Source: a virus
Virus record (IMG/VR): IMGVR_UViG_3300021425_000044
Coordinates: 1-57,013 of that record
DNA: 57,013 nucleotides
Direction: 5' to 3' (one strand)
Shown: piece by piece, positions 6,222-47,205 of the stretch
Layout of the letters: each line of letters starts with the position of its first letter
Numbering within the stretch: position 1 is the first letter of the stretch
The notes under the pieces: generated by a model
What the model was told of the DNA's origin: nothing
What the model saw: only the letters and a program-made list of their open reading frames with translations
Database searches by the model: none
Made by a program: the position numbers and the translations under genes

Positions 6222-6396
6222 CTTGAGCTTCGTCAAACGCTGCTAGAGCGTTGCCGATGTGACGTTCCTTCATACTATTGAACTGTCCGTCTGATAGGTT
6301 ACGATCCATCTTTCGACTCGGGCTGGCTGCTTCTCGCAGCTTGCGGCGGTACGCCTGCTCCTTTTCGATGCGGTCGTCTTCGCTAATGTAGTTCAT
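6196..6396 (-). CDS. Small charged hypothetical protein
   Basis: A 66-aa protein rich in Arg/Glu (DDRIEKEQAYRRKLREAA), probably helical. It overlaps the upstream ART-like gene by ATGA and its 3' end overlaps the converging methyltransferase gene. No family recognised. Confidence 0.65.
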   Translation of the reverse strand: MNYISEDDRIEKEQAYRRKLREAASPSRKMDRNLSDGQFNSMKERHIGNALAAFDEAQASGDAEQS

Positions 6397-7316
6397 CCTT
6401 GTGCCCGCCCCCGATCGTCGTAGCGCTGTTCTATAATGGTGCGGAACTGAGGTCCCATGCCTATCCTGCGCCCGACCAATGCACCCCCGGTGGAGGTGGA
6501 GAGGGGTAGAGGTTCCTGATAAGGTCTATTCTTAACTGAGACAGCCGACCGGAAAGGTACCTTACCCTCGTTACCTTTCTCTATACGCTTGTAAGCGAAA
6601 TCCTGAGCCATAGGAGTGCTCCCAGGGTCATCTAGTACGTCCCTCTCCCAGGAGGTTACTGCGGTGCGCGGGGCGATGATGCTCTTCTTGAATCCAGGAG
6701 TCTCTTCGGTGTCTTCAAGGTTATCCCCTTCGATGTAATTATGGTACTGGATGGGCCTTCCCTGGTGTAGCGCTCGGGCACCCGCCTGCGCCCTAGCCGT
6801 CCCATTTTGCCACTCAAGGGAGTCATAATTATCCCTGGGGGCCATATCGCCCGCAGACTCTACGATGGACTCCGGTATTTCGTCCTCGTACTCTCCACTC
6901 TCTAGGCGGGCACCGTACTCGGCAGCGTTAGCCTCCCGGTCAGTGAACACACCGGGAGCCTTCTTCTTGGTCAGGCGGCGAGCGTAGACGCTAGCTGTGT
7001 CTCCAGACGGCTTGCTCACATCGTCAAACAAGTCGTAGTTGTCGTACGCTTCGCCCAGGTACTGAGCACGGCTCTTGGCACGCTGGGAGGTGCCGTCACC
7101 ACCGAGGGGGAGCGCCCCTGCACGGTCAGCAGCTTGGCCCCTGGTCCCGTAGTGAGCCATGGGGGCGTTCCCGAAGTCAGAACGCCCAGAGCCGTGGTAG
7201 ATCGGGTTCTCCGTCGCTAGCCACTCGTCCATACTCTTCTGTCCAGGGCGTTTAGCGGCAGTCTGGTACTCAGACGAGTCGAACAACGATAGCTGCTGAG
7301 AAAGGTTATCCTTCAT
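6393..7316 (-). CDS. ADP-ribosyltransferase-like protein with clamp-binding-like peptide
   Basis: A 307-aa protein. Near the N-terminus (8-12) is QLSLF, identical to the bacterial sliding-clamp binding consensus. After SMDEWL it has NPIYHGSGRSDF (His41), then AHYGTRGQA and SVYARRL, resembling the N-terminal H-motif and core strands of Arr-like and other ADP-ribosyltransferases. The catalytic Glu cannot be assigned by eye. The paralogue at 10.9-11.8 kb shares SMD-W, NP-YHGS, YARRL and TSWERDVL, so these residues are under selection. Target and activity are unknown. Confidence 0.6.
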   Translation of the reverse strand: MKDNLSQQLSLFDSSEYQTAAKRPGQKSMDEWLATENPIYHGSGRSDFGNAPMAHYGTRGQAADRAGALPLGGDGTSQRAKSRAQYLGEAYDNYDLFDDVSKPSGDTASVYARRLTKKKAPGVFTDREANAAEYGARLESGEYEDEIPESIVESAGDMAPRDNYDSLEWQNGTARAQAGARALHQGRPIQYHNYIEGDNLEDTEETPGFKKSIIAPRTAVTSWERDVLDDPGSTPMAQDFAYKRIEKGNEGKVPFRSAVSVKNRPYQEPLPLSTSTGGALVGRRIGMGPQFRTIIEQRYDDRGRAQG

Positions 7317-7372
7317 AGTCCTATATATTCAACTTTAACTGACCAGGGACTTGTTGTTTATGCCCTGGTAGC

Positions 7373-7792
7373 TCACGCTCCACCGTCTCCACCGTCTCCC
7401 ATATCTCCACCGTCTCCCATATCTCCACCTTCATAGTAGCTGGTCGGGAACCGGTCTAGGGCTTCCATCGGGTAACCCATCATGTTATCAAATGCGTTGC
7501 TGGGTCCACTTACCTTGTAACGTTCTCCTACTTTCCCCTCAGCGAAGCCCTCGGGCAGAGGCTCCAGGACGTGAGGGTTCGCAGTTGGGAACTGGTTATC
7601 GTAACCGTCCCCATCCACACCGCCTCCACGAGCAGAGTCCAAAAGCGTATCAGGAGCGTTGGCGTTACCATCACTCATAACGTCTGCGGGGTGACGGGCT
7701 GCACCCATGTTTCCCTGGTTCGGGTAGATCTGCCGGGACCCTTGTGGGTACTTGAAGTCTTTGGAGTTTGAGAATTGATGGTCTGAAAGCAT
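7373..7792 (-). CDS. Gly/Asp-rich hypothetical protein
   Basis: A 139-aa low-complexity protein (Tyr/Pro/Asn-rich start, RGGGVDGDGYDNQFP in the middle) with GDMGDGG repeats at the C-terminus. It resembles the unknown low-complexity proteins at 30.7-32.9 kb in style. A TATGAT box lies 6 nt before the ATG. Confidence 0.6.
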   Translation of the reverse strand: MLSDHQFSNSKDFKYPQGSRQIYPNQGNMGAARHPADVMSDGNANAPDTLLDSARGGGVDGDGYDNQFPTANPHVLEPLPEGFAEGKVGERYKVSGPSNAFDNMMGYPMEALDRFPTSYYEGGDMGDGGDMGDGGDGGA

Positions 7793-7798
7793 AGAGAT

Positions 7799-7804
7799 AT
7801 CATA
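7799..7804 (-). promoter_or_regulatory. -10 box, leaderless layout
   Basis: TATGAT on the minus strand ends 6 nt before the ATG at 7792. No strong -35 box is visible. Confidence 0.5.
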
Positions 7805-7860
7805 TCACAACCCATCTCCAAATAATTGCAAGATTAACTTATTACTACCTCGCTGTGTGT

Positions 7861-7889
7861 TTGAAAACGTCAATCCTAGCCGATAGAAT
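7861..7889 (+). promoter_or_regulatory. Promoter of nrdJ
   Basis: TTGAAA, 17 nt, TAGAAT read rightward. The -10 box ends 10 nt before the ATG at 7900, giving a leader of only a few bases and ruling out use of upstream in-frame GTG codons. Confidence 0.65.
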
Positions 7890-7899
7890 AGCTTGTCCT

Positions 7900-10086
7900 A
7901 TGACACTTACAGACTCCTCTCTCGCTACCCCGCCCGCCCTCACAGACGAAGTTATCACCTCGTTTATGGATGACAAGATCCTTGCAGAGGATCTTCCTGC
8001 CCCCCAGTGGGGGCCGGTTGGTCGGGAGGTTTTTGAGAGAAGTTACTCTAGGGACATCATCGATCCCTCGGGCCTGGTGGTGGATAACTGGACCTGGCAG
8101 GTCCCCGAGTCTCGTACCACCGAGTTGTGGGGTGACACCGTGCGTCGTGTTGTCAGTGGAAACATTGGGTACGCAGACGACATGGGGATTAATACCAGCC
8201 CGTGTGAGGTGTTGGACCTGTTCCGCATGATCTACGATTTCAAGATCGTCCCCGCAGGTCGTCATCTGTGGATGACTGGCGTACCGGGTGCGGCCCTCAA
8301 GAACTGTCACCGCGCAGGCTGGAGCAAGGATATTACAGACCACTTCCGATTCCTGGCTATACAGCTTTTCCAGGGTGGCGGTGTCGGTGCAAACTACTCC
8401 AAGTTCTATCGTGAGCGTGGTGGTAACGTCGTCGGTAATGTGGACGTTCGTGTCACCATTTCGGAGAGCCACGATGACTACGCATCAGTCAAGTCGTCTG
8501 CTGACGGTATGTGGATTGGGGACGAAGACTTCAACGTGCTTCCGTTCGTAGTTGAGGACACCCGAGAGGGTTGGGTTGACGCATGGGTTGAGCTTATTCG
8601 CCTGTACCACACCCCAGGAGATCACCATGTTGTGTTTGACCTGACAGAAGTTCGTCCACATGGTGCCCCTCTCCGTGCGTTCGGTGGTAGGGCATCCGGC
8701 CCATCGCCTCTTGCAGGCTCACTCGTTTCTATTTCGGCTATCCTTGAAAAGGTTGAAACTGACACCCTTATGTCGGCCATCGACGCCATGGTCATCGACC
8801 ACTACATCGCTTCTGCAATCGTCGCAGGCGGTACCCGCCGCAGCGCCCGTATGTCACAGCTTAACTGGAATGACCCAGAAGTATTCGACTTCATCAAGCA
8901 TAAGCGCAATGATCCCTCGGTCTCGTGGAGCACTAATATCTCTGTTGTTCTGGACGATGACTTCCACGCAGCCCTTGAGGGTGGAGACGCTCACGCTTCC
9001 GAGGTTCTCCACGCTATCGCAGAAGGTATGGCCGCTGACGGCGAGCCGGGTATCTACAACCTATCTCTCGCTCAGGTAGGAGAGAAGCGGGACGTGGGTG
9101 CCACCAACCCTTGTGGAGAGGCCATCTTAGAAGAGCATTACGACCCTGAGACAGGTGAAGGCTCTGCCAGCGGTGAGTCGTGCAACCTGGGATCGGTGGA
9201 CATGGATGCCATCGGAAACAACCATACGGAGACTATTGAGGCATTCCGCCTAATGTCACGATTCCTGTACCGTGCAACGCTCGCCCCCATCTATGACGCT
9301 GACCAGGCTGAGATTGAGTTCCGCAACCGCCGTCTCGGTGTGGGCATCATGGGCTTCCAGGGTTGGTGCGCCAGCCATGGTATCAAGCTGACCGAGTTCC
9401 CTGACAGCGAAGATCTAATGAACAAGATGGTAGAGTATCGTCTTGCGTGTCGTGACGCCGCCGATACCCTGGCTGAGGAGCTTGGTCTCCCTGCGCCGAT
9501 CAAGGTTACAGCTATTGCCCCGACTGGCTCTATTGCACAGCTACGGGGTACTACGGCAGGGCTTCACCCAGTGTACGCCCGGTACTTCATCCGTCGTATC
9601 CAGTACGCTGACACCGCCCCCACGCTTCAGGAGATGATCGACGCCGGATACCCTATTGAGGATTCCATTTACGCTGCCCATACCAAGGTCGTATCTATCC
9701 CTGTTAAAGACATCATCCTCGACCGCCATGCGGAGGAACTCATCGAGCAGTCCGACGAGGTTGGTGTCGGTAGCTTCCTGGCAGTTCAGGCATCTCTACA
9801 GGACACCTTCTGTGGGGGGCTTGATGGTCAAGCTATTTCTGCTACGGCCCAGATCCCGCCAGACACTAACCCTGACCTCCTTACAGAGACACTATACGAG
9901 TACGTTCACCGTATTAAGGGTGCCACTGTGTTCCCTGCTCTCAGCCGCCCCCAGCAGCCCATTACTTCAGTGTCTAAGGGTGACTGGGCTATTGCTCTTC
10001 TGGAATTGAGTAACTCATCTACTACCACTCTTCACGGAGACTCCAACGACGGTGATTGCGTTGGGGGAGCTTGTCCCATCCGGTAA
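7900..10086 (+). CDS. nrdJ: Class II adenosylcobalamin-dependent ribonucleotide reductase
   Basis: Reduces ribonucleotides to deoxyribonucleotides using a thiyl radical generated from coenzyme B12, supplying dNTPs for phage replication. The 728-aa length fits the monomeric RTPR type (about 740 aa). NPCGE at 403-407 carries the radical Cys405 with its Asn and Glu partners; Cys136 (NCHRAGW) and Cys428 (SCNLGS) fit the reducing pair; Cys720 and Cys725 (CVGGAC) at the tail fit the re-reducing pair. PTGSIAQLRGTTAGLHPVYA is the typical active-site barrel region. The start at 7900 is set by the promoter. It is transcribed alone, between two leftward operons, and ends before strong hairpins. Confidence 0.93.
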   Translation: MTLTDSSLATPPALTDEVITSFMDDKILAEDLPAPQWGPVGREVFERSYSRDIIDPSGLVVDNWTWQVPESRTTELWGDTVRRVVSGNIGYADDMGINTSPCEVLDLFRMIYDFKIVPAGRHLWMTGVPGAALKNCHRAGWSKDITDHFRFLAIQLFQGGGVGANYSKFYRERGGNVVGNVDVRVTISESHDDYASVKSSADGMWIGDEDFNVLPFVVEDTREGWVDAWVELIRLYHTPGDHHVVFDLTEVRPHGAPLRAFGGRASGPSPLAGSLVSISAILEKVETDTLMSAIDAMVIDHYIASAIVAGGTRRSARMSQLNWNDPEVFDFIKHKRNDPSVSWSTNISVVLDDDFHAALEGGDAHASEVLHAIAEGMAADGEPGIYNLSLAQVGEKRDVGATNPCGEAILEEHYDPETGEGSASGESCNLGSVDMDAIGNNHTETIEAFRLMSRFLYRATLAPIYDADQAEIEFRNRRLGVGIMGFQGWCASHGIKLTEFPDSEDLMNKMVEYRLACRDAADTLAEELGLPAPIKVTAIAPTGSIAQLRGTTAGLHPVYARYFIRRIQYADTAPTLQEMIDAGYPIEDSIYAAHTKVVSIPVKDIILDRHAEELIEQSDEVGVGSFLAVQASLQDTFCGGLDGQAISATAQIPPDTNPDLLTETLYEYVHRIKGATVFPALSRPQQPITSVSKGDWAIALLELSNSSTTTLHGDSNDGDCVGGACPIR

Positions 10087-10117
10087 AGTCCCACTGGTGT
10101 AATCGTTACCATATTTG

Positions 10118-10163
10118 GACCATCATTTTCCCGTTCTAAGAGCTGAATAGGAAAATGATGGTC
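10118..10163 (+). terminator. Hairpin after nrdJ
   Basis: A perfect 14-bp stem (GACCATCATTTTCC / GGAAAATGATGGTC) closes an 18-nt loop between converging genes. A/T runs inside the arms would supply U-tracts in either direction, so it may act bidirectionally. Confidence 0.6.
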
Positions 10164-10166
10164 TAG

Positions 10167-10252
10167 GGGATATCAGGGATATAAACTTGATGGTTTAATT
10201 GTCGCGGTCGAGGTGTACCCCTGATATCCCTTTAGAGGGGATATGATATCCC
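10167..10252. repeat. GATATC-rich inverted repeats
   Basis: GGGATATCAGGG at 10167-10178 pairs with CCCTGATATCCC at 10219-10230 (12-bp stem, 40-nt loop), followed by the near-palindrome GGGATATGATATCCC at 10238-10252. The CTGATATCCC word also occurs in the 11-bp repeat array at 19.77 kb. Probably part of the convergent terminator zone. Confidence 0.45.
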
Positions 10253-10254
10253 TT

Positions 10255-10416
10255 CTAATTATCGCTAAAAAGTGTACCCTGCTCACCTTGTGACTTTTGT
10301 CTTTTGCCTAGGACCGACCTTAGGGTGCGCCTAAGCGATCGTCGCTTAACTTGACTGGGGTGTCTATACGACGGAATTGGAGACCCTTTTTCTTCATGTA
10401 GAAGAGTCTCACACAC
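10255..10416 (-). CDS. Small basic protein ending in a clamp-like peptide
   Basis: With the GTG at 10416 the product is 53 aa, strongly basic (KRRSLRRTLRSVLGKRQK), ending GEQGTLFSDN. The end resembles the QxxLF peptides on neighbouring genes. An upstream TTG (10455) would lengthen it into the previous gene. No homologue recognised; the reading frame is only moderately supported. Confidence 0.45.
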   Translation of the reverse strand: MCETLLHEEKGSPIPSYRHPSQVKRRSLRRTLRSVLGKRQKSQGEQGTLFSDN

Positions 10417-10423
10417 TACTGTA

Positions 10424-10585
10424 TTATCGGCCCCTGGCCCAGCCCCCGCCGACAAAGTTAGCTACAACAGACTCATCCTTATAGGAACGTCTGGAGATAA
10501 CACCGCAGCACTGTGGGGGGCTTTCACGGTCCTCACCATTAAGAGTCTTAGAACACTCTTTACACCTGAATGCGTAGTTAGCCAT
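10424..10585 (-). CDS. FmdB-like zinc-ribbon miniprotein
   Basis: A 53-aa protein starting MANYAFRCKECSKTL with a second pair, PPQCCG, giving a CxxC...CC(x) metal-binding pattern like the N-terminal FmdB-type zinc ribbon. It overlaps the upstream gene by one base (TGATG). Such proteins are proposed regulators, but the role here is unknown. It is the third of three consecutive zinc-finger miniproteins. Confidence 0.65.
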   Translation of the reverse strand: MANYAFRCKECSKTLNGEDRESPPQCCGVISRRSYKDESVVANFVGGGWARGR

Positions 10586-10749
10586 CAGGACTTATCCTCT
10601 TTGTCAGGATCAGCTTCTCCTCCGAACATGCTGCTAATCCCTTCCTTCTTATTGGTAAGGTTTTCACCACACACCTGACAATGCTTAGCAGGGGGACCTG
10701 TCATACGTGTGATGGTGCGTACGCTTGGGTGCTTACATACTCCAGTCAC
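10585..10749 (-). CDS. Zinc-finger miniprotein
   Basis: A 54-aa protein with GTG start (VTGVCKHPSV) and a central KHCQVCGENL, giving C-x-H and C-x2-C ligand pairs. The start overlaps the upstream stop and the end overlaps the next ATG, so the three miniproteins are read as a coupled unit. No specific family. Confidence 0.6.
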   Translation of the reverse strand: MTGVCKHPSVRTITRMTGPPAKHCQVCGENLTNKKEGISSMFGGEADPDKEDKS

Positions 10750-10907
10750 GACGGCACCTTCACTGACTTCTTAACACCGTGCGTTGGCACTTTATTAAAG
10801 GTGAACTTGGTCCAGATGAAACCGCACTCAGGGCACTCGTCCCCGTTGATCGCTTTCTTACCTGATCCAGGGCACTCTGTAGGGAAGTTGTAGTTGTCGT
10901 AAATCAT
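10746..10907 (-). CDS. Zinc-ribbon miniprotein
   Basis: A 53-aa protein with TECPGSGKKAI followed by DECPECGFIW, a short zinc ribbon similar to many phage miniproteins (C-P-G-S-G, then C-P-x-C-G). The basic tail (KKSVKVPS) may bind nucleic acid. First of three coupled small genes. Confidence 0.65.
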   Translation of the reverse strand: MIYDNYNFPTECPGSGKKAINGDECPECGFIWTKFTFNKVPTHGVKKSVKVPS

Positions 10908-10928
10908 GGGGCGTAGCCTACCATATAA

Positions 10929-11828
10929 TTAGTCTTTTGGCAACTCAATCTTCTGAGTAACTGCCCCCTGGTTCTCAGCACTCGACATTGCCGAGGAGAA
11001 CTGGTAGGAGCTAATGTTGGGGGCCATGTCTTTGAAAGACCCTGTATGAGGCTCTCTGAAAGGTACAGACCCTTCCTTACCGGAGTCGATACGCTGTCGG
11101 GCGTATCTCTTTGCATCCTCTGATGCCCGAGGGGCCTTTAACACATCCCGCTCCCAGGAGGTAGTTGCCTCGGGGGGCGCTACGTACGAAGGCATTGAGG
11201 AGCCTCCATCCTCGTACTCGTTCTTATATGATATGGAATGGCCCTGTTGCATATCTTTCATACCCTGTCTAGCGGTACGGGCACCCGGCTCATTCCTATC
11301 AAATAGTGCTTCGTTCCCCCCATCACCGTGTACACCATAATCAGGACGTAGCACTCCAGCACTGCCCTCGGTAGACGGAGGAATACTTGCCCCCTCTTCC
11401 CACCGGAAGCCAACCTCAGCAGCATTAGCTTGCTGGTCAGACATTGGAAGGTTCTTAGATATCCCCATAGAGGGGTCTTCACGAGGAGTCTGGTCGATCA
11501 ACCGCCGAGCGTAAATACGCCCTTCATGCTCCGTTTTGACCGGCGTCATCGGATCATCCGACTTCACCCCGTAGTACCTGTTGTTGTCAGATGCACTATG
11601 AGCAATGCTGGAAGACATGTCCTCGATACGCGCAAGGGCCTGGTCTTTGGTACCAAAATGATGTACAGGTGCCTTAGTCCAGTCTGAGCGCATGGAGCCG
11701 TGGTAGACAGGGTTAGTCTTGTCCACCCAGTCATCCATTGACAGCTCTCCTAATTCAGGGGGTGGGCTGTTGTAGTCGTCCTTGTCGAAGAGGGTGAGCT
11801 GCTCAAACTGGTCTTTATTCAGAGTCAT
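10929..11828 (-). CDS. ADP-ribosyltransferase-like protein with clamp-binding-like peptide
   Basis: A 299-aa paralogue of the 6.4-7.3 kb protein. It has QLTLF at residues 10-14, SMDDW, NPVYHGSMRSDW (His43), VHHFGTKDQALAR and RIYARRL, then TSWERDVL. The YHGS strand and the HFGT/A-R helix fit an ADP-ribosyltransferase fold, but the catalytic Glu is not assignable by eye. The ATG at 11828 is chosen over the GTG at 11834 because the promoter's -10 box ends directly before that GTG, making the upper codon untranscribed. Confidence 0.6.
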   Translation of the reverse strand: MTLNKDQFEQLTLFDKDDYNSPPPELGELSMDDWVDKTNPVYHGSMRSDWTKAPVHHFGTKDQALARIEDMSSSIAHSASDNNRYYGVKSDDPMTPVKTEHEGRIYARRLIDQTPREDPSMGISKNLPMSDQQANAAEVGFRWEEGASIPPSTEGSAGVLRPDYGVHGDGGNEALFDRNEPGARTARQGMKDMQQGHSISYKNEYEDGGSSMPSYVAPPEATTSWERDVLKAPRASEDAKRYARQRIDSGKEGSVPFREPHTGSFKDMAPNISSYQFSSAMSSAENQGAVTQKIELPKD

Positions 11829-11834
11829 GTACAC

Positions 11835-11862
11835 ATCATACCACGTCGTACCCTGTTGTCAA
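11835..11862 (-). promoter_or_regulatory. Promoter, leaderless layout
   Basis: TTGACA, a 16-nt spacer and TATGAT on the minus strand; the -10 box ends 6 nt before the ATG at 11828. This is the clearest leaderless promoter in the window. Confidence 0.7.
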
Positions 11863-11872
11863 ACCACTACCG

Positions 11873-12640
11873 CTAGGTGTAGGGGTACGGATCGGTCGAA
11901 GATCCTTTAGACCTAGCCTCTTTAATGTCGTTGTGGTGTACAACCGGGATGAGGGTGTCGGGGGCGATGTCCATAGACGCTGCAATACGGTGGTGGCCCC
12001 CCACTATTTGAGGCTTACCCTTCATCCCCTTTGTCTGACCTAGATGCACCGGGTTCTTTACTCCTTCGGATTTGATCTTAGAGTGTAGGGTGTTACCAAA
12101 GCTGTAATAGTTGTCAACCCTGTCGTTGTACTCTTGATCGACACGGTTATCAAACGATTCCAGTGCCTCATCGTACGTGTTGGTACCTCCAGTACGGTAT
12201 TCAGGGTAGCCGTCACGATCGCCCACGTGGTCGTGAGCATCGGTGTAGCCAGGCTCCATTTCCTTTACCTGCTCAGTACCCCCAATGGCGTGCATATAGT
12301 CCGATTTCCTCATTTGGGACTCTTCTAACTTTCGGCTCCATAGCTCCTCGTCAGTCTCTTCCCCAGGGTTGTACTTATAGGGAAAGGTAGTGCCCCCCTC
12401 TCGTGGGGGCTTGGAAAACCCGCTATGGGTATAGTTAGGGTCTCCTTTAGTGTTGTGAGAACGGAACGTCCCCGAGGTGTCGCCCATCCATCCACGAACA
12501 TGATCGTAGTACCCGTGTTCGTTTTTCTGCATACGATCTCCGTCCAGGGGCTGGTACTTACTCGTAATCTCTTTGGGGGTCATAAACATTTTGAGCTGCT
12601 CGCCGCCCGTTGCCGAGGTACTAGGACTAACTCGTCTCAT
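11873..12640 (-). CDS. ParB-like domain protein
   Basis: A 255-aa protein whose C-terminal region has the ParB/Srx-type core: GVKNPVHLGQ, then PQIVGGHHRIAASMDI with the GHHR nucleotide-binding motif, then DTLIPVVHHND. Such domains bind or hydrolyse nucleotides, or act as nucleases in phages. The N-terminus has GEQLKMFMTPKE (clamp-peptide-like QLKMF) and a long Tyr/Asp-rich linker. It lies between two ART-like genes, overlapping the upstream one by 14 nt. No ParB HTH region is present, so plasmid-type partitioning is unlikely. Confidence 0.7.
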   Translation of the reverse strand: MRRVSPSTSATGGEQLKMFMTPKEITSKYQPLDGDRMQKNEHGYYDHVRGWMGDTSGTFRSHNTKGDPNYTHSGFSKPPREGGTTFPYKYNPGEETDEELWSRKLEESQMRKSDYMHAIGGTEQVKEMEPGYTDAHDHVGDRDGYPEYRTGGTNTYDEALESFDNRVDQEYNDRVDNYYSFGNTLHSKIKSEGVKNPVHLGQTKGMKGKPQIVGGHHRIAASMDIAPDTLIPVVHHNDIKEARSKGSSTDPYPYT

Positions 12641-13097
12641 TTGCTGTCTCCTGAAAGATGTGATACCCGTCTTTGGTGCGCCGTTCGCTCGGGAATACGA
12701 ACCCTACATGTCTCTTCACTTCAAAGCCCTCACGGTCGATGGGCAGTGTATTGGACTCAGGCATGTAGACCCGAGGGTCACCGTCCTTGGCATACTTCTT
12801 CGACTTCTCGATGTCGATATGGAGCGCAGGGTGGACCTCGTACTCGCTCTTGGGACCGACCTCGTAGACACTGGCAAACAACCGGCCCTGACCTTCACGT
12901 GGCTCCGCAGCCCCCTTGAGACCAAAGTAGCTCGCTGTGGATGTGCTATCGGCCCCGAACGCTGCCCTCTCACCTTTCATATGAATGGTGTCAGGAGTAG
13001 GGTCAACAGTGTCGCCTGGGGAGAACCCATGTCCGCTGCCGTGGTACACAGGACCGTCAGGCTGCATGGCGAACTGGGAAGAAAGATTATCTTTCAT
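12627..13097 (-). CDS. Arr-like ADP-ribosyltransferase
   Basis: A 156-aa protein, the most Arr-like of the three ART candidates: GPVYHGSGHGFSPGDTVDP near residues 15-33 matches the H-motif and GD loop of rifampin ADP-ribosyltransferase, FGADSTSTASYFG fits the Tyr/Ser helix, and GRLFASVYEVGP the central strand. Arr-type enzymes modify small molecules or macromolecules with NAD+; the substrate here is unknown. It begins MKDNLSSQFAM, echoing the MKDNLSQQLSLF start of the paralogue at 6.4-7.3 kb, but the clamp-like peptide has decayed. Confidence 0.6.
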   Translation of the reverse strand: MKDNLSSQFAMQPDGPVYHGSGHGFSPGDTVDPTPDTIHMKGERAAFGADSTSTASYFGLKGAAEPREGQGRLFASVYEVGPKSEYEVHPALHIDIEKSKKYAKDGDPRVYMPESNTLPIDREGFEVKRHVGFVFPSERRTKDGYHIFQETANETS

Positions 13098-13322: not shown

Positions 13323-14000
13323 TCAGGTATCCAGCGACAACTGTTCCTGTTCCTGTTTCTGAGTCTGTCGAGCGTCACTCTTGCGCCCGAGGATAGACCG
13401 CACCGTATTGCGGCCCCTGTTTACTTCCCCTGGAGAAACAACTTCTCCACCAGACCAGTCTCCCTTCGGTGCCCTCCAGAAACCTACCGAATTCGTGGCG
13501 TGTCTCTCAAAGCCCTTATCAACGGCCCCCTTATCTTTCAGTCTACCCACCAGATTGTCCGAGTGTTCACTCAGGTCCGTGTCTGGAGTGAGCGAGTAGC
13601 CTCTCTTCATTGCGTCATTTTGGGCAATTCCTAGGAGGTTCATGCCAGCGACCTTAGCAGAGGTGGTGTTCGTACCTCCCATGCTCACTACGGTTGCCGA
13701 ACCGGGGGAGTTGAAGTGGTCAAAGAGCTTTTGTTGGCCTTGTTCCGGCTGTACGATCTTCGACGGAATACCCGACGTGTCCCAAGTGTCCGACACCACT
13801 TCATCCTCATCGTTCCAGTTTCTATAAACGTCCGCAGGGGGGCGATAGCTTACAACCACGTGGCTGTCCATATCATGCTCATCGGGGGCGATATTAGACG
13901 GTTGGGGGCGTGAGTCCGACGAAGCGTGGTTGTAGTGTATTTCTCCAACCGAATTCCATCGGCTAGCGTCCCGAACATAGGCACCTTTTTTAATGGTCAT
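13323..14000 (-). CDS. Hypothetical protein with terminal QLSL motif
   Basis: A 225-aa protein of unknown function, first gene left of the origin-like region. It contains GQQKLFDHF near the middle and ends EQEQLSLDT, both resembling clamp-binding peptides. The central helix region (TSAKVAGMNLLGIAQNDAMKRG) and the KGFERHATNSVGFWR segment show no recognised fold. The ATG is fixed by a TATGAT box 6 nt upstream. Confidence 0.62.
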   Translation of the reverse strand: MTIKKGAYVRDASRWNSVGEIHYNHASSDSRPQPSNIAPDEHDMDSHVVVSYRPPADVYRNWNDEDEVVSDTWDTSGIPSKIVQPEQGQQKLFDHFNSPGSATVVSMGGTNTTSAKVAGMNLLGIAQNDAMKRGYSLTPDTDLSEHSDNLVGRLKDKGAVDKGFERHATNSVGFWRAPKGDWSGGEVVSPGEVNRGRNTVRSILGRKSDARQTQKQEQEQLSLDT

Positions 14001-14006
14001 ACCCTT

Positions 14007-14012
14007 ATCATA
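14007..14012 (-). promoter_or_regulatory. -10 box, leaderless layout
   Basis: TATGAT on the minus strand with AAGGGT between it and the ATG at 14000. The -35 region is not near consensus. Confidence 0.5.
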
Positions 14013-14072
14013 CCACTTTGGGGGCCTATTGGACCACTTTTTGGGTGTGGGTGCCGTGTGTTACCTACCCAC

Positions 14073-14485
14073 TTATCCACAGGTTATCCCCAATTTATGG
14101 TGGGGGGGGTGTGGATAACCTGACCCCCCTTATCCCCAGCCTCTATCCCCATGTTATACACAGGGGGGGGCGATACGTGGAGTGGTGTGACCATTGTCAC
14201 GTGACAGTTGTCACACCGACAAGGTTATCCACAATCACCGACGACTTATCCACACCCTGTGGATAAAGGTGTGGATAACACACCCCATGTGACCATGGTC
14301 ACATCCTCTGAGTCCGCCTGTGTTGCGTTCTAAGGCGTCGACCCCCCTCTGCGCCCCCGTCATACCAAAATGAGATTCTAAGAGCTTAGGGGGCAACGTT
14401 TTTCTGTGGATAACTCCAACGGCCCATATGCCATAAGGCTCAGATCAGATCCTGAAATAATGGACGCCTCACAGGGTTATCCACA
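14073..14485. other. DnaA-box cluster, candidate replication origin
   Basis: Eight exact TTATCCACA boxes occur in about 410 bp of gene-free DNA: forward at 14073, 14225, 14246 and 14477, reverse at 14110, 14258, 14270 and 14405. TTATACACA (14154) and two TTATCCCCA (14084, 14130) add to the cluster. This is the consensus of host DnaA. The cluster lies where leftward genes (to 14000) and rightward genes (from 15550) diverge, as expected of an origin. Confidence 0.7.
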
Positions 14486-14793
14486 GCCCATGGTGTGACA
14501 TTTGTCACACCATTTCATGTGACATTTGTCACACCGTTTCATGTGACATTTGTCACACCGTACCCCTGGAACCGCCCCCCACTTGATCAGATAGTTAGGC
14601 CTACTTAACATGGACAGTTAGGACTTGCTATCACATGGTAGGAAACACACCCGATATGGGATATGAACCATTGCTAACCTGAGAATGATCCCGTCTGATA
14701 GCTAACGAGAACCGTTCTCAGATCTATTCCTCTATAGAATCATTCTCAATAAGTTGGGGGGCGATGTTGGGGGGCGATGTGACGAATGTCACA
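14186..14793. repeat. TGTGAC-N4-GTCACA palindrome family
   Basis: Seven copies start at 14186, 14200, 14288, 14494, 14518, 14542 and 14778; the first two overlap and each has one arm-end mismatch. All keep GTGAC-N4-GTCAC, and five match TGTGA-N6-TCACA, the classic CRP/GlxR site, exactly. The 14494, 14518 and 14542 copies are spaced exactly 24 bp apart, like iterons. No CRP-type gene is present in the window, so the binder is either a host factor or an unrecognised phage protein. Confidence 0.75.
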
Positions 14794-15549
14794 CGCCCAT
14801 GACGAGGAACGGCACCCCCCATGGGCTATCTTGATTCACGTCGCCGCAGGACTGCGACCGAAGGCCAGTAGCTCCCGGCGACGGGGGCGAGGGCCGGGGA
14901 TTCTTGACAACACAGCACCCCCGCTCGGGCGAGATCGGCCAGCCACCAGGCCCGCCACCAACCGCGCCGTGCGAGCACCACGCTCGCCGGTAGCCACACT
15001 CGCCGCCACCGTTGCACACGCACCGGACACGGGCACCGGGCGGGGGGCGAAGAAACGACACGACGGCGACACGCAGTCCAGGGTTCCTCCTGCACACGCA
15101 CCTGAGCCGCTCGGAACCACGCCCGTAAGGGCCGCAGCATCGCAACCCCCGCACCCTGGTCGTCCCAGGGCCGGGGGGCGCAGCTTGCAGGGGGACGAAC
15201 GGCGAGACGGCAGCGTGTGCGGGTTCCCAGGAACGCACCGTAGATCACCCTCTACACGCAGGCGTGACAGGCACCGACCACACTCAGACGAGCAAGAGAT
15301 CGGAGCCTGCTAGGGCCGTCGTACTGCAGCGTAAACGTGGGGGATGACGCCTCTCAGACCGGCAACGGTCAGGCCACTACGAACCACGCACTGGAGCCAC
15401 GGCAAGGCTCAAGGGATGACGACGCTGCGAGCACTCCCCCCGACACCGGACAACCCGGTGGGGGGTGTTGCTCAGGGTTCTCGACTCCGGTCGAGCACCC
15501 TGAGGAGCACTGCTCCATACCCATCAACGCCTAGGAAGGACATGCATCC
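14786..15549. other. GC-rich region without a convincing gene
   Basis: About 760 bp with open frames on both strands, but all translate to Arg/Pro/Ala-rich low-complexity sequence, a by-product of high GC; none has a good ribosome site or familiar motif. The end carries two consecutive hairpins. It may encode a long leader or a structured RNA for the rightward operon, or be degenerate DNA. Confidence 0.5.
15436..15504 (+). promoter_or_regulatory. Double hairpin in the leader of the rightward operon
   Basis: A first stem pairs the C-run and CACCGG (15436-15449) with CCGGTG and the G-run (to 15466). A second, CTCAGGGT-T-CTCGAC / GTCGAG-C-ACCCTGAG with a TCCG loop (15471-15504), follows directly. 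There is no U-tract, so an attenuator or mRNA-stabilising element is as likely as a terminator. Confidence 0.45.
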
Positions 15550-20567: not shown

Positions 20568-22043
20568 ATGAACTTGAACGATATGCTCTCCGATATCGGT
20601 GTTTCACCGACGACAACCCCCGCCCCGTCGACGCCCGCCGTGCGTCCTGGTGACACGACCATCCCGCTGTACGACTTCCAGCGTGAGGCCGTCGAACACG
20701 CCCTGAGGTCGAACACTGACCAGTACGGATACATCGGCCTGGAGATGGGCCTGGGCAAGACCCCCTGCGGCATCAGCATCGCTGTAGGTTGCAAGGACGC
20801 AGGCATCACGCCCACGCTCATCATCGTCCCCCCGAGCCTCCGTATCAACTGGGTACGTGAGATCAAGAAGTTCGCCCCCGGCCTCAAGGGTTACGTCTTG
20901 AAGGGGACCAAGCCTCACGACGTTCCGGCTGACGCCGACGTGCTCGTGATGGGCGACAGCAGTGTCATGGCTTGGCACGAGTCACTCATCGGTCAGGTGG
21001 GGGCGCTCGTGGTCGATGAGGCTCACCGGTTCAAGAACCGTGAGTCCAAGCGCTCTAAGGCTCTCGATACCCTATCCAAAAGCATTACAGGGCCACGAGT
21101 GCTCATGTCCGGTACGCCGATGCCCAACGGTCGCCACGCCGAGCTTGCCAAGCAGATCGACGTGCTTGGCAACGGCGCATGGTCTGATATCGGTGGTATC
21201 GGAAACTTCTGGCAGAACTATGCTCCCCAGACAGACTCGTGGGGCGGTCGTGGCAACAACGACAGCGAGGGTCTGCACAAGCGTATGACCAACTCGTGGT
21301 TCTTCCGCAGGCTTCGTGACGACGTTATCGAGATGCCCAACAAGGGCCGCACGTCTCTCGCCCTGGAAGGTAAAGGTAAGGCCGTCTCAAAGTACAAGCG
21401 TATGCACGAAGACATCATCTCGTTCCTCGCTGACAACAACGACGGCAAGGTGACCGCTGGGCAGAAGCGTGCAGAGGCTCTCATTCGGCTCACGTCGCTC
21501 CGTAAGGCGGCGGGAGAGGCCAAGGTGGAGTCAGCAGTCACTCACATCAAAGAGCTGTTAGACAGCGAACCAGGCGGAGTGTTCGTTGTTGCCGAGCACG
21601 GTGACGTGATGGACGGGCTTGTCGACGGTCTGTCGAAGTACAATGCCACGACGGTTCGGGGCGGTATGAGCGACACGGCCAAGGCCGAGGCGGTCGATAG
21701 CTTCAACTCCGGTACAAGCCGGGTGCTCGTTGGTCAGATCACAGCGGCTGGCGTCGGCCTCACCCTTCACGGCGACGGTCGTAACCACCGGGTCGTCGTC
21801 GTGCAGCTTCCTTGGACTCCTGCGGACCTCAAGCAGGCCGAGGACCGTCTGCACCGTATCGGCCAGACCAAGGACGTGCATGTCGAGATTGCCTTGTGCG
21901 CCATCGACAACATCTGGACCATCGATGAGCGGCTGTGGGGAATCCTGGAGGCTAAGAACTTCAACACCACCTCAGCTATCGACGGCGACGGTGAGTACCT
22001 GTTGTCAAACGCTCAGGACTCCCTACTCGACACCTACCGATGA
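20568..22043 (+). CDS. SNF2-family DNA helicase/translocase (first copy)
   Basis: A 491-aa superfamily 2 ATPase: LYDFQREAV (Q-like motif), GLEMGLGKT (Walker A, ending near 65), VVDEAH (Asp150), LMSGTPMPNGR (motif III), then RVLVGQITAAGVGLTL (motif V) and QAEDRLHRIGQT (motif VI). This is the short SMARCAL1/HepA-like form that translocates on DNA and remodels forks or displaces proteins. The start is set by the promoter; an earlier in-frame extension lies in the hairpin. A second, diverged SNF2 gene lies in the leftward replication operon. Confidence 0.9.
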   Translation: MNLNDMLSDIGVSPTTTPAPSTPAVRPGDTTIPLYDFQREAVEHALRSNTDQYGYIGLEMGLGKTPCGISIAVGCKDAGITPTLIIVPPSLRINWVREIKKFAPGLKGYVLKGTKPHDVPADADVLVMGDSSVMAWHESLIGQVGALVVDEAHRFKNRESKRSKALDTLSKSITGPRVLMSGTPMPNGRHAELAKQIDVLGNGAWSDIGGIGNFWQNYAPQTDSWGGRGNNDSEGLHKRMTNSWFFRRLRDDVIEMPNKGRTSLALEGKGKAVSKYKRMHEDIISFLADNNDGKVTAGQKRAEALIRLTSLRKAAGEAKVESAVTHIKELLDSEPGGVFVVAEHGDVMDGLVDGLSKYNATTVRGGMSDTAKAEAVDSFNSGTSRVLVGQITAAGVGLTLHGDGRNHRVVVVQLPWTPADLKQAEDRLHRIGQTKDVHVEIALCAIDNIWTIDERLWGILEAKNFNTTSAIDGDGEYLLSNAQDSLLDTYR

Positions 22044-27464: not shown

Positions 27465-28922
27465 TTATGTATCAATGGGGGGGTCATCGAGAAGGTCAGC
27501 CTCGATGATGGCCTGGTCTAGCTCGTTGGCGGTCATAGGGGTGGAAAGCTGATTAGCCTTATCTGCGATATCTGATCCGAATATCTTACTGAGCACGCCC
27601 CCACTACCCTTTGCCTCGACCTCCATACGGAACACATCACGAGTGTCTTGGATGTCCTTAAAGTCCTTCACGAGCCTGAAGAGGCGGTCCATCTCAGCCG
27701 ATAGCTCGGCATCGATACCTTGACCCTCTACGTCCTCTGCGAACTTAGCGAACATAACTCGACTCGCTTGCATCTCCACCATGGCGGTGAGTAGGGACTG
27801 GAGTTGGGACTTGCTCTTAAGCTCCATAGGTAGGTCATACGCACAATCCATATGTTCCTCAAAACGAGGACAACGGGGAGCTAAATAGCAACTATCACAT
27901 TGCCTCACACTCTTGCTACTGAGGGCTACTACGCTCTCTTCATGTGGGCGTAAATCGTAGGTTTCATCACCGTTTGCGCCCTTTTTGGCCTCGGTGGAAA
28001 GTACCTTATCTAGACCAAATACCGGTAGCAATTCCCGGTCACTCTCGTGCCTACTTTCTGGCCCATAGGTAGCAATAGTACTATGGTTAGAAACCGTGTT
28101 ATCGGGTTTCGCAGAATCGGGGGGTATAGTTGCTATGTTGCCCTCTGAGGGGTGTTCAGACCCCTCATCGAGTTCACCTGCCGAGGGGTCATAGGCCGCA
28201 GAACTGGGGGTATCGTAGGTCCTTTTCTCCCACTCCAACCACGACATTACGGCCATCTTAGCCACCTCTTTAACGTCATCTTCCATGACGGCATCGAAGT
28301 CCACCCCAAGACGGGTGATATCATTACGGTGCTTCTGTCGTACCTGCTGCTTCTTAGCTGCAGGGTATCGCCGTAGTCCATGACCATCCCATATCTGGGT
28401 TTCGCCATACCTTACAACACTCTTCCACGACGTTACGATAGCCACATCCCAGTCGACTGACTCTATGATGTCGACCTTACCGGTGATGACAACCATAAAG
28501 GCGTTCCACCTCTGCTTCAATTGCTTGATACGTTTGGTCGTGGATGACGTGATAGCCCTATCGGATATCGCCACCCGCCCGTATCGCTCACAGAGGTGAG
28601 CCAGTCTTTCGATGTCTTCTGGATCGTTCCAGATAGGGATGTACTTATCCCCTAACCACTCACCGTTGTAGTCGGGGCGACCGATAACCGAGGTGATATC
28701 GCCCCCGTGTTGACGGATGAAGCTATCGAAACCGTCGATATCAGAGTCATCATCGCTGGTATATAGGTACACATCCTCGGTACCGAAATACTCCTTGATC
28801 TCCAGCTCCTTACGCTTCGGCACTGCGAAGTGTGTGAGGTTCATAGCTACCGACTGAGCGTTGTTATCCTTGAGAACGTTTCTATAGGTACCCTTCTCGG
28901 CACCTGCGAGGACTACCTTCAT
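27465..28922 (-). CDS. Large conserved hypothetical protein with CxxC cluster
   Basis: A 485-aa protein. Residues 1-240 look like a nucleotide- or sugar-binding Rossmann-like region (MKVVLAGAEKGTY, RLAHLCERYGRVAISDR). The C-terminal third has CDSCYLAPRCPRFEEHMDC, four Cys that could bind iron-sulfur or zinc, and a helical tail. A variable acidic linker separates the parts. I do not recognise the family. Confidence 0.6.
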   Translation of the reverse strand: MKVVLAGAEKGTYRNVLKDNNAQSVAMNLTHFAVPKRKELEIKEYFGTEDVYLYTSDDDSDIDGFDSFIRQHGGDITSVIGRPDYNGEWLGDKYIPIWNDPEDIERLAHLCERYGRVAISDRAITSSTTKRIKQLKQRWNAFMVVITGKVDIIESVDWDVAIVTSWKSVVRYGETQIWDGHGLRRYPAAKKQQVRQKHRNDITRLGVDFDAVMEDDVKEVAKMAVMSWLEWEKRTYDTPSSAAYDPSAGELDEGSEHPSEGNIATIPPDSAKPDNTVSNHSTIATYGPESRHESDRELLPVFGLDKVLSTEAKKGANGDETYDLRPHEESVVALSSKSVRQCDSCYLAPRCPRFEEHMDCAYDLPMELKSKSQLQSLLTAMVEMQASRVMFAKFAEDVEGQGIDAELSAEMDRLFRLVKDFKDIQDTRDVFRMEVEAKGSGGVLSKIFGSDIADKANQLSTPMTANELDQAIIEADLLDDPPIDT

Positions 28923-38593: not shown

Positions 38594-40765
38594 TCATTTG
38601 GCTTCGGCCCAGGATAGGGCATGACCTGCTTCGACTTCCAAAGGAACACCCATGAGAGTGCGCCCGTTACCCATAGCTGTCTCGATACGAGGCTTCCAGT
38701 CGAAAACCTCATCACTCGGTACAGATACTACCACCTCATCGTGGACTTGTACAAGCATACGATGAGTAGGAAAGGGCAGTATACCATCGATATTGACAAT
38801 TGCCTCTTTCATAATCTCAGCAGCAGTACCTTGTACTACAGCGTTGATCGCCTGACGTTCTGCCCTTGAACGCTTACGCCAGGAGTCGGAGTCATTACCT
38901 TCTGTAAGGATGTCTGGAACCCTACGTCGTCGTCCATATAGGGTCTCGACGTACCCCTTAGAGCGAGCAGTGTCCAGTACGTTACGTTTCCAGTCAGTCA
39001 TCCCGGCATACGCCGAGTTGTACTTATCGATGACTTCCTGTGCCTGCTCCTCTGTGAGATGACCCTGCGTAGACTCCACCAACTTCTTTGCAAAGCCTCC
39101 ATATCCCATAAGGAAGTTCGGGGTCTTTCCAAATATCTGTCGCTCCTCTCCTGATACCTCGTCCTTACCCAGGATCAGCTTGGCTGTCTCCTCGTGAAGG
39201 TCGATATCAGGGTTGGCAAAGATACGTAGAAGCTCCTGGTCCTGGCTGAACATACCCATGATACGCATTTCGATCTGCGAGTAGTCAGCCACGATAAGGG
39301 TCTCTCCCTCTCCTGCGGTAAACAGGGAGCGAATCTTCGTATCACGAGGGATGTTCTGTAGGTTCGGCCCGCTAGACGCGAATCGACCTGTGGCCGTGCG
39401 ATGGAAGTGGAACTGGGGATGCAGTCTGCTCTTGTGGAGCATGGGTGTCAGCCCCTCAACGTACGTAGACTTGAGTTTCTTAAGCTCAGAGTAGTCAATG
39501 AGATGCTGGATCACCTCGTGCTTACCCTTGAGCTTACCCAGGGTGTCTCTGTCTGTTGAGGGCTTGCCCCCGGCTGTCAGCTTGACAGGCTTAAGACCTA
39601 GCCCCTTGATATAGTCAGACGGATACCCCTTACCTATACGAGTTTTGTTGAATAGTAGAGTAGCCAGATCGTTGTTGGAGTCAGGGTTGAAACCAGGGAA
39701 CGAGTGGAAGCTAATCTCTCGCAAGCATTTATTGATATCCATATCCAAATCCTTACCCACATTGGTCATCCTGCGGGTATTGACGTGGATGCCGTTCATC
39801 TCCATCTGTGCGACAGGGCGGATACAGTCAATGTCGAGCATGAGAGCCTTATGGAGACCCTCTACTTTGCAAATCTTGTTGTACATCTTGCGGTACAGAA
39901 GCCATGCCCAGCGAACATCTCTATGCACATACGCCGTCGCCTTACTGAACGCCTCTGACGTGATGGTTGCACCGATCTTACCGTCTGCTGCATAGGGGTC
40001 GTGCCCTGCGAAGTTCTCTTTGATGATGCTGCCGAGGTCGTACCTCATCAGGTTCTCATCGAGAATATGCATAAGGATAAGGGTATCGATATACCTACCA
40101 GTAGGAAGTTGACCTCCGTAATACTTGGCGATGCTCTTGCAGTCGAACTTGATGTTCTGGTTAACCTTGACAATGTTCTCGTCAAAGAACAGAGGCTCAA
40201 GAGCTTTGAACACTGTCTCCTGGTCTAGCTGAGTCGGGGGAGGTGTGAATACCGCTGGGATATGGTACTTCGACTTCCGTAATGATTCCTTACCTGAGGA
40301 GAGGATGTCTCTGTAACCAGGGGGCGGGACGGTGCTACCATCTCCCCTGACCTCCTCAACGAGGATCTCACCGTTAGGGTGCCCCATGGGGACTGCCCAT
40401 GACATACCCTCGGTAGCCAGACCGATCCAGAATACGTCGTTACGTAAAGGATCGAGAGCCATGTTACTCGTCCAACGGTCCTCGATAGCCTGACGGCTGC
40501 GGGCGATAACGCTGGGGTGAGTGGACTTGAGGGAGGCTTGCTTCTCCTCCCAATCTTGCTCTACCTGAGCAAGGACCTCGCTGTTCTTGTGGATGTTCCC
40601 ACGAGTCTCAACGTCGAAGGAGAACTCTCCTACGCCTTTTATGTACTCAACAAGTTCTTCTAGTTCCTCGACAGTAGAGACGTAGGGGGCACGGACGAGA
40701 CCACCACTCGCCCGTACCCCCCTTGCCTGCCGTGACCCGTCAAGACTAGGGGTCACGGCCCCCAT
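38594..40765 (-). CDS. polA: DNA polymerase I family (family A) with 3'-5' exonuclease
   Basis: A 723-aa replicative-type family A polymerase lacking the 5' nuclease. Exonuclease motifs: FDVETRG (Asp51, Glu53), IKFDCKSIA, and YVHRD (YxxxD). Polymerase motifs: VADYSQIEMR (Asp494), RQIFGKTPNFLMGYG (motif B with Phe at the 762-equivalent), and VQVHDEVVVS (HDE at 675-677). It shares one base with the SSB-like gene and copies phage DNA with the primase and helicase encoded nearby. Confidence 0.95.
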   Translation of the reverse strand: MGAVTPSLDGSRQARGVRASGGLVRAPYVSTVEELEELVEYIKGVGEFSFDVETRGNIHKNSEVLAQVEQDWEEKQASLKSTHPSVIARSRQAIEDRWTSNMALDPLRNDVFWIGLATEGMSWAVPMGHPNGEILVEEVRGDGSTVPPPGYRDILSSGKESLRKSKYHIPAVFTPPPTQLDQETVFKALEPLFFDENIVKVNQNIKFDCKSIAKYYGGQLPTGRYIDTLILMHILDENLMRYDLGSIIKENFAGHDPYAADGKIGATITSEAFSKATAYVHRDVRWAWLLYRKMYNKICKVEGLHKALMLDIDCIRPVAQMEMNGIHVNTRRMTNVGKDLDMDINKCLREISFHSFPGFNPDSNNDLATLLFNKTRIGKGYPSDYIKGLGLKPVKLTAGGKPSTDRDTLGKLKGKHEVIQHLIDYSELKKLKSTYVEGLTPMLHKSRLHPQFHFHRTATGRFASSGPNLQNIPRDTKIRSLFTAGEGETLIVADYSQIEMRIMGMFSQDQELLRIFANPDIDLHEETAKLILGKDEVSGEERQIFGKTPNFLMGYGGFAKKLVESTQGHLTEEQAQEVIDKYNSAYAGMTDWKRNVLDTARSKGYVETLYGRRRRVPDILTEGNDSDSWRKRSRAERQAINAVVQGTAAEIMKEAIVNIDGILPFPTHRMLVQVHDEVVVSVPSDEVFDWKPRIETAMGNGRTLMGVPLEVEAGHALSWAEAK

Positions 40766-43038: not shown

Positions 43039-44580
43039 TCACACCATAGATTCCTTCATAAATGTACTTAAATTATCCAGCGTGAGAGAGAAACCCTGTT
43101 CCATATCATGGTGCTTACCGTCGATGAACGCTTCGTTAGTCTTCAGCTTCTCCTGAAGCATCTGGTACTGGCGCTCCTCAATACTGCCAGCCATCACAAA
43201 TGTAGCAATGGTGACGTGGGGCCACTGGGACGACAGTCGAATGATGCGTGCCTCCCGCTGCTCTAGCTTACCCGAGGACCAGGGAAGGTCATATGATATA
43301 AGGTAGTTAGCCTGGGGGAGATCGACACCGTACCCTCCCGCATCACTCGATAGAAACAGCCTGGTGTTTGGATCGCTTTGAAACTTGTTCTTGTTATCCT
43401 GCTTCTCGTCTGCCGTCATACCGCCCATGAACAGGACGCTGTTTGTAATCTTACGGGTGGCCTCCTGTATCAGCCTCAGGTTCTCCTTAAAGAACGAGAA
43501 GAGAACGACCTTGTTGTCAGGAGACTCCTCTAGTACCTCTGTTATGTAATCTACCACGGCGTCTAGTTTGGGGGCGGCGGAAACACCGTCCATGATACCG
43601 GCGTTTACGATAGTGTTAGCGTACTCGCTCCCGTGCTTTGTGTCAGGGTTAGCGTACTCGCCAGAGGACCAGCGAACTAGAGCAGGGTTATCGCAAAGCA
43701 TACGCAGGGTAGTAAGCCGGGTCATCACTTCGCCCTGCTCCTCCCCGCCGTCCCCATCGTTGTTATAGTGGTCCCACAGGGAGAATCCACTACCCCCTTT
43801 ACGGAGCGCTTTAGAGAGAGTGTCAACGAGATCTGACTGGATACGTCGATATACCGCTGCACCTTTGGTATCAAAGGGTACTGGTATCACCTGATGGATG
43901 ATATTGGGCAGTTGGTCCGCTATATCCTCGCGTGTCTTCCTGACCATACACTCTTTCATGGTCTTGTGCATCTTGTCGAGGTTCCGATACCGGGCGGGCT
44001 TACCCCAATGGTCACGGACGATGAACGTACGGTCGAACTGCTCAAAGCTACCTAGTACGTCCTTGTCTACGAACTCCATGATACTGAACAGTTCTTCGGG
44101 GCGATTCTCAATAGGCTGTCCGGTAAGAGCGAACCTAAAGGGGACGGTCTTTCCTAGGCGCTTCATCAATTTAGACCTCTTGGCCGACCTGTTCTTGATG
44201 ATCGTGGACTCATCAATGACGATAGCTTGAATCTGTCCTATCAACTTGTAGTCGTTGAGGAGGGTCTCGGGATTGACAATGACATAGCGAGCATCGCCCG
44301 ATGTCCTCCACTGTCGTTCACGCTTCTTCTTAGTACCGTCAATAACCATGGTACGTCCGTTAGTGAACTTCTTGATCTCGTCCCTCCACTGTAGCTTGAG
44401 AGATGCGGGGACGACGATCAGAGCACGGTCGATATCCCCCTCCTCGTACATCTGCTCGATAGCCCCGAGAGTCGTAGGGGTCTTTCCGGCACCCATGGTC
44501 ATAGCGAGCATCATCTGGCCTCTCTCGACCATACGGTCCACAGCATCTTGTTGGTACTTACGCAAACTGCCGATAAACAC
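43039..44580 (-). CDS. SNF2-family helicase (second copy)
   Basis: A 513-aa superfamily 2 ATPase: LRKYQQDAV, TMGAGKTPTTL (Walker A, near 28-38), IVIDESTIIKN (DExx box), LTGQPIENRPEEL (motif III) and AGGYGVDLPQANYLI plus EQREARIIRLSSQ (motif VI). GTG start after GAGGAGGATC; it overlaps the primase gene. It differs from the rightward copy at the DEST and motif VI, suggesting separate roles at the fork. Confidence 0.9.
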   Translation of the reverse strand: MFIGSLRKYQQDAVDRMVERGQMMLAMTMGAGKTPTTLGAIEQMYEEGDIDRALIVVPASLKLQWRDEIKKFTNGRTMVIDGTKKKRERQWRTSGDARYVIVNPETLLNDYKLIGQIQAIVIDESTIIKNRSAKRSKLMKRLGKTVPFRFALTGQPIENRPEELFSIMEFVDKDVLGSFEQFDRTFIVRDHWGKPARYRNLDKMHKTMKECMVRKTREDIADQLPNIIHQVIPVPFDTKGAAVYRRIQSDLVDTLSKALRKGGSGFSLWDHYNNDGDGGEEQGEVMTRLTTLRMLCDNPALVRWSSGEYANPDTKHGSEYANTIVNAGIMDGVSAAPKLDAVVDYITEVLEESPDNKVVLFSFFKENLRLIQEATRKITNSVLFMGGMTADEKQDNKNKFQSDPNTRLFLSSDAGGYGVDLPQANYLISYDLPWSSGKLEQREARIIRLSSQWPHVTIATFVMAGSIEERQYQMLQEKLKTNEAFIDGKHHDMEQGFSLTLDNLSTFMKESMV

Positions 44581-46734: not shown

Positions 46735-47205
46735 TTAGTATCCAAACTTTCCATCGGGGTTGACTACCGTGGCACGATGCCATCCGATTGCCTTAGCGTC
46801 CTCTTCGTAAGGGGTGAAGAGGGTGTGAATCTCACGGTTGTAGCGCATGTCGTCTGACAGGTCTTCTAATTTGTCGTAAGAGTATACCCGGCAATCAGCC
46901 CCTTTCCTCGCCAGGTAGTTCTCAATGTGCTCAACCATGAAGTCATCATAGTACGTGTACACGTCAACCGCAATTCCTAACTGGTTCCTGAGGTGTATCA
47001 GGGAGCGAAGTGGCATCTCGTTGATACGCCATAGAGACATCGTACGCTTAACCCAGTCGTCAGCCTCAACGTAATCGTGTTTCTTGAGTATCCTGGATAG
47101 GAGACCCGGTTGTTTTACCGGCTCCTGCTCTACGTTTACGACTAAACCCTCAAACCAGCAGGCGATACGACTATGTATAGTTACACCGATGTCGCCCTTC
47201 TCCAT
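46735..47205 (-). CDS. Conserved hypothetical protein (HAD-like?)
   Basis: A 156-aa protein with MSLWRINEMPLRSLIHLRNQ then LGIAVDVYTYYDDFMV, somewhat HAD-like in order but lacking the nucleophile motif. Sits between loader and helicase genes. Function unknown. Confidence 0.55.
   Translation of the reverse strand: MEKGDIGVTIHSRIACWFEGLVVNVEQEPVKQPGLLSRILKKHDYVEADDWVKRTMSLWRINEMPLRSLIHLRNQLGIAVDVYTYYDDFMVEHIENYLARKGADCRVYSYDKLEDLSDDMRYNREIHTLFTPYEEDAKAIGWHRATVVNPDGKFGY

Follow-up and report, generated by a model that had tools for sequence, protein, structure and literature searches.

Does a phage that encodes its own replication enzymes also carry a host-type origin, at which the DnaA protein of its host would be recruited? 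The question is raised by a locus near 14 kb in the virus record IMGVR_UViG_3300021425_000044, which was analyzed whole (57,013 bp) and is referred to here as the window. A motif scan of both strands located eight exact TTATCCACA boxes, one TTATACACA box and two TTATCCCCA near copies within 413 bp (14073–14485; Table 1), matching the counts and positions given in the initial annotation, and no exact TTATCCACA was found outside this interval in the 57,013 bases. Among repeated 9-mers other than simple repeats, none clusters as prominently in the window as this box, and in its density of DnaA boxes the array resembles an oriC-type origin. By comparison, 300 dinucleotide shuffles gave a mean of 0.37 boxes per window-sized sequence and a maximum of 1 per 450 bp. 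Pairs of TTATCCACA do occur in many viral contigs, as might be expected if the array were an artefact of chance or composition; the shuffle controls, the recurrence of the array in three relatives and the whole-genome scans described below refute this explanation for the window and leave it a negligible probability.

The array lies between a leftward ORF (13323–14000) and rightward ORFs, and thus at a divergence of transcription, as had been proposed. The accompanying claim of about 410 gene-free bases holds insofar as the region is gene-poor, but the stretch is longer: it starts at 14001 and continues at least as far as 14785, perhaps to ~15550, because ORF 14786–15313 is Arg-rich and had no match in the family search. 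The region contains no known RNA above curated thresholds and two terminator-like sites (shuffle mean 1.0). Profile searches confirmed that the phage encodes a primase, a DnaB-type helicase, a DnaC-like loader and a PolA-type polymerase, and the window additionally encodes a UvsX-like recombinase, ThyX, ribonucleotide reductase and a WhiB-type regulator. The WhiB-type regulator, together with the named relatives of the phage, points to an actinobacterial host. Searches for closer relatives returned no near DNA match among named phages (BLAST with 20 kb of the window), no confirmed relative among viral contigs queried with the AAA ATPase, and, in a search run without a positive control, no prophage-borne copy of the SNF2-type helicase (E ≤ 1e-60) among 395 Acidimicrobiia genomes.

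Table 1. Coordinates of the DnaA boxes, palindromes and replication genes in the window.
Feature	Position	Strand	Remarks
Exact DnaA box TTATCCACA	14073–14081	+	
Near DnaA box TTATCCCCA	14084–14092	+	
Exact DnaA box TTATCCACA	14110–14118	-	
Near DnaA box TTATCCCCA	14130–14138	+	
DnaA box TTATACACA	14154–14162	+	
Two overlapping imperfect GTGAC/GTCAC palindromes	14186–14215		
Exact DnaA box TTATCCACA	14225–14233	+	
Exact DnaA box TTATCCACA	14246–14254	+	
Exact DnaA box TTATCCACA	14258–14266	-	
Exact DnaA box TTATCCACA	14270–14278	-	
Palindrome TGTGACCATGGTCACA	14288–14303		
Exact DnaA box TTATCCACA	14405–14413	-	
Exact DnaA box TTATCCACA	14477–14485	+	
Three TGTGACATTTGTCACA palindromes in tandem, 24-bp period	14494–14561		16-mer shared with several Microtrichaceae chromosomes, where it adjoins parB
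AT-richest 60 bp in the region (65% AT)	14696–14755		Candidate unwinding element, weak
Palindrome TGTGACGAATGTCACA	14778–14793		Identical to a copy in Microtrichaceae genome G157
Gene-poor divergent region with array	14001–14785 (may reach ~15550)		ORF list and translations
PolA-type DNA polymerase	38594–40765	-	phrog_17
DnaG-type primase	44558–45469	-	Profile search
DnaB-like replicative helicase	45466–46734	-	phrog_19
DnaC-like helicase loader	47205–47786	-	phrog_50, E 2e-21
Homolog of C-terminal part of G002 O-like initiator, without N-terminal winged helix	47783–48544	-	

A second element, which the initial annotation had missed, shares the gene-poor stretch with the boxes. It consists of five perfect TGTGAC-N4-GTCACA palindromes, which begin at 14288, 14494, 14518, 14542 and 14778 (span 14288–14793); the window has no others, and the shuffle mean is 0.007. 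All five fit the operator pattern of the CRP family, TGTGA-N6-TCACA.

Scanning viral contigs for TGTGACATTTGTCACA identified 66 stretches, three of which (L006, L033 and L060) also contain box clusters, in an arrangement that is the same by sequence and gene order. In whole records, the exact boxes are gathered in a cluster with palindromes adjoining: all nine in G001, six of seven in G002, and three of four in G003, the nearest relative of the window, with which many proteins are 50–70% identical. In the phages that have both elements, boxes and palindromes are interleaved or adjacent. The G002 contig (98,917 bp) closes on itself and represents a complete relative, and no integrase was found in the parts of it scanned, among the first 25 of 45 PHROG families for one ORF set. 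A further phage, G004 (L069), has boxes, several palindromes and LexA-type CGAAC-N4-GTTC sites, and G009 has two perfect palindromes, one of them followed by imperfect copies, with no exact TTATCCACA. The LexA-type sites are mixed with boxes and palindromes at L069:14234–14479 and L060:1262–1470, and box clusters are likewise paired with such sites in L149 and L158. The viral palindrome matches do not form one related set, as many look unrelated; at L014:3770–3785, the 16-mer TGTGACAAATGTCACA can be read in one frame as Cys-Asp-Lys-Cys-His codons, and some viral TGTGACAAATGTCACA matches are therefore coding. Two other features of the gene content were observed. A queuine tRNA-ribosyltransferase-like gene (27465–28922, phrog_887), 50–57% identical in G002, G003 and G009, possibly functions in DpdA-type DNA modification. 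Several proteins of the leftward genes (6393–13097) have a YHGS motif resembling ADP-ribosyltransferases, and G002 has a Pfam ART-PolyVal match.

The palindrome also provides a link to a probable host. A scan for box plus palindrome in a collection with one genome per species (84,980 species) produced 13 matches, for which gene names (parB, cwlM-like and others) were assigned from gene order and sequence. In Candidatus Microthrix, the match follows parB in the order jag, rsmG, parA, parB, cwlM-like, trxB, and two further matches occupy the same place after parB in an Acidimicrobiales MAG from the same family. The 10 matches outside Microtrichaceae had none of the tested host origin-region genes and were set aside. 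A search for parB in Microtrichaceae recovered 30 loci, 12 of which have a perfect palindrome within 400 bp after the gene, in the parB–cwlM intergenic region (L261–L268, L270 and L285–L287). The spacers of the host palindromes are ATTT, AAAT, ATTA, ATAT, ATAA and GAAT, and DnaA-box-like repeats often follow. Two window 16-mers, that at 14494, 14518 and 14542 and that at 14778, are identical to host copies. Whole-genome scans of 10 palindrome-bearing genomes detected a single copy in nine and two copies in G144, and five family members without the palindrome after parB have no copy genome-wide; Microthrix has one, and the Acidimicrobiales MAG has two, on separate contigs, each with parB. Several of the other Microtrichaceae parB loci contain a different palindromic sequence in this place (e.g., TATTGACA..TGTCAATA). 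A distribution across Acidimicrobiia was rejected, with a match in 25 of 119 genomes and neither parB nor cwlM at any of the 24 non-Microthrix loci inspected. Exact boxes are not clustered on either side of dnaA in Microtrichaceae (L291–L320 and L321–L338). Because the same 16-bp palindrome sits between parB and the cwlM-like gene beside DnaA-box-like repeats, the phage host is probably Microtrichaceae-like, and the locus seems to imitate, in multiple copies, an element of the host origin region.

The host copies bear on two other explanations. A CRP-type site in a divergent intergenic position could serve transcription control, with DnaA and a palindrome-binding factor regulating the divergent promoters and tying phage expression to the cell-cycle state of the host. 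The window's last palindrome is near the start of the rightward ORFs, and palindromes or near-palindromes are similarly placed in G002 and G003. However, promoter-like matches are no more frequent than in shuffles, no CRP-type HTH gene was found in the window, and in the parB loci examined the host palindrome is flanked by convergent genes, a position in which a promoter would not be expected. Instead of marking the promoters of many genes, as a CRP operator would, it is present in one or two copies per host genome. We consider transcription control improbable. Alternatively, the position of the host copies directly after parB could reflect a partition or chromosome-organization site, in which case a host segregation factor near parB would bind the palindrome, the phage would use it for positioning, and the DnaA boxes would be incidental. 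The palindromes of G009, which are unaccompanied by an exact DnaA box, fit such a role; the interleaved or adjacent placement of the two elements wherever both are present does not. The palindrome also differs from the parS consensus, a difference that we count against partition, and this explanation is the less probable of the two.

The evidence that the locus is an origin is mixed. Cumulative GC skew, the check called for in the initial annotation, shows no minimum at 14 kb, and the detrended skew drops to the right of the array, with a sign opposite to the usual origin signature; the switch to leading-strand G excess expected of oriC is thus not seen. AT-rich DNA beside the boxes is modest in the window, where the 60-bp peak at 14696 ranks in the top 0.8%, and absent in G002 (55%), and no AT-rich element is conserved. 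The proposal of a host-type DnaA-box origin therefore survives in part: a skew minimum and conserved AT-rich DNA are lacking, but the boxes are much more numerous than chance would give and are conserved among relatives of the phage, which makes recruitment of host DnaA a fair inference from the sequence.

A candidate for an alternative origin is found in G002. The O-like initiator gene of this phage (L202:1010–2323) encodes a winged helix and matches replication-initiation PHROGs, and four 22-bp palindromic iterons within the gene (L202:1862–1961; G002 21862–21961), with AT-rich DNA adjoining, constitute a candidate lambda-type origin predicted from sequence. G002 accordingly combines an initiator containing a DNA-binding domain with iterons; neither a winged helix nor iterons were found in the initiator homologs of the window and G003. 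The iterons are 55 kb from the DnaA array, which G002 has nevertheless retained.

Persistence of the array beside these iterons would be understandable if it were a DnaA sink, in which the multiplying phage copies draw DnaA and the palindrome factor off the host origin region, host initiation stops, resources pass to the phage, and the phage origin lies elsewhere. The datA locus of E. coli, which acts in the chromosome and needs an IHF site, has 2 consensus and 4 one-misfit DnaA boxes (PMC5835720), compared with 8 consensus boxes in the window, where binding is predicted. A sink would also be in keeping with the just 0–2 exact boxes of the host parB–cwlM sites and with the variation in box number between phages, from 3 exact boxes in the G003 cluster to 9 in G001. 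On the other hand, a comparable phage DnaA decoy was not found in the open-licence literature, and the array holds one genomic position at the strand switch, a constancy that a sink would not require. A sink is possible, though we think it unlikely.

In preference to a sink or promoter control, we tentatively favor the reading that the phage has here imitated an element of the host origin region and that the array serves as an origin, or an initiation element, dependent on DnaA, a reading to which we give somewhat less than an even chance. In its favor are the excess of both boxes and palindromes over shuffles, the recurrence of their pairing in G001, G002 and G003 with exact boxes almost wholly in one cluster, the same 16-mers after parB, near DnaA-box-like repeats, at 12 of the 30 loci of Microtrichaceae, the comparable layout of the mycobacterial oriC (PMC4285127), the prominence of the array among the repeated 9-mers of the window, and the DnaC-like loader and DnaB of the window. 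Against it are the skew and AT content, the array of G002 alongside that phage's own iterons and O-like initiator, the palindromes of G009 without exact TTATCCACA, and the lack of either element in the nearest isolated relatives; in addition, the parB–cwlM region is only a candidate for the working origin of the host. As a DnaA-dependent element, the array would be the site at which host DnaA and a putative palindrome-binding host factor assemble. The DnaA complex would then open DNA nearby, perhaps in the AT-richer segment at 14.70–14.76 kb, where the loader and helicase encoded by the phage would be placed, probably for the first rounds of replication. The role of the array would matter most in the lineage of the window, where the O-like initiator is without a DNA-binding domain, an absence that we count in favor of an origin.

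More broadly, there is close to an even chance that this actinophage lineage carries a multicopy replica of host origin-region signals (DnaA boxes and a once-per-genome palindrome for a putative host factor) and thereby captures the host initiation machinery. In that case, the array would be pointing to an origin-region regulator of Microtrichaceae that has so far gone undescribed and, if confirmed, to a phage that has its own replisome and yet borrows or disarms host initiation control. The array also offers a compact piece of DNA with which to look for the palindrome-binding protein. What connects this uncultured phage group with its probable host group is not a gene but a regulatory sequence that both have, and the Microtrichaceae palindrome near parB has apparently not been described before.

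The initial annotation had called a mixed initiation strategy with host DnaA uncommon, which is too strong for DnaA-box clusters per se. At least 120 stretches of viral contigs have two exact boxes within 30 nt, and among the 120 matches listed, 55 have at least 3 exact boxes in 600 bp and 8 have at least 6. Six to seven exact TTATCCACA within 600 bp, without the palindrome, are present in L102, L117, L125, L132, L133, L136, L143 and L172. DnaA boxes have been predicted earlier in a phage origin (PMC11512268). The unusual part is the pairing of a box cluster with a palindrome of which Microtrichaceae have roughly one copy per genome, close to parB; no description of this pairing was found in the open-licence literature, a scope that leaves most subscription papers outside.

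The locus can be compared with several known systems. The nearest isolated phages (Gordonia phage GMA6, Brevibacterium phage Cantare and Actinomycetia phage DSL-LC01) share with the window an AAA ATPase gene (26–28% identity) and a divergent gap to its left, but in these phages the gap has neither the palindrome nor a DnaA-box cluster. As at a lambda-type origin, the genes for initiator, loader and helicase are together in the window, but the initiator is without winged helix or iterons and the DnaA array is >30 kb away. E. coli datA is likewise a cluster of consensus and near-consensus DnaA boxes, with no counterpart to the palindromes. In the mycobacterial oriC, as in the window, sites based on GTCACA are found among the DnaA boxes; the mycobacterial sites are MtrA boxes, direct repeats of GTCACAgcg, whereas the hexamers of the window are inverted, separated by a 4-bp gap and carried by a phage (PMC4285127). 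The parB–cwlM element of Microtrichaceae has identical 16-bp palindromes followed by DnaA-box-like repeats, as in the window, and differs in copy number, with one palindrome and 0–2 exact boxes where the phage has five and eight.
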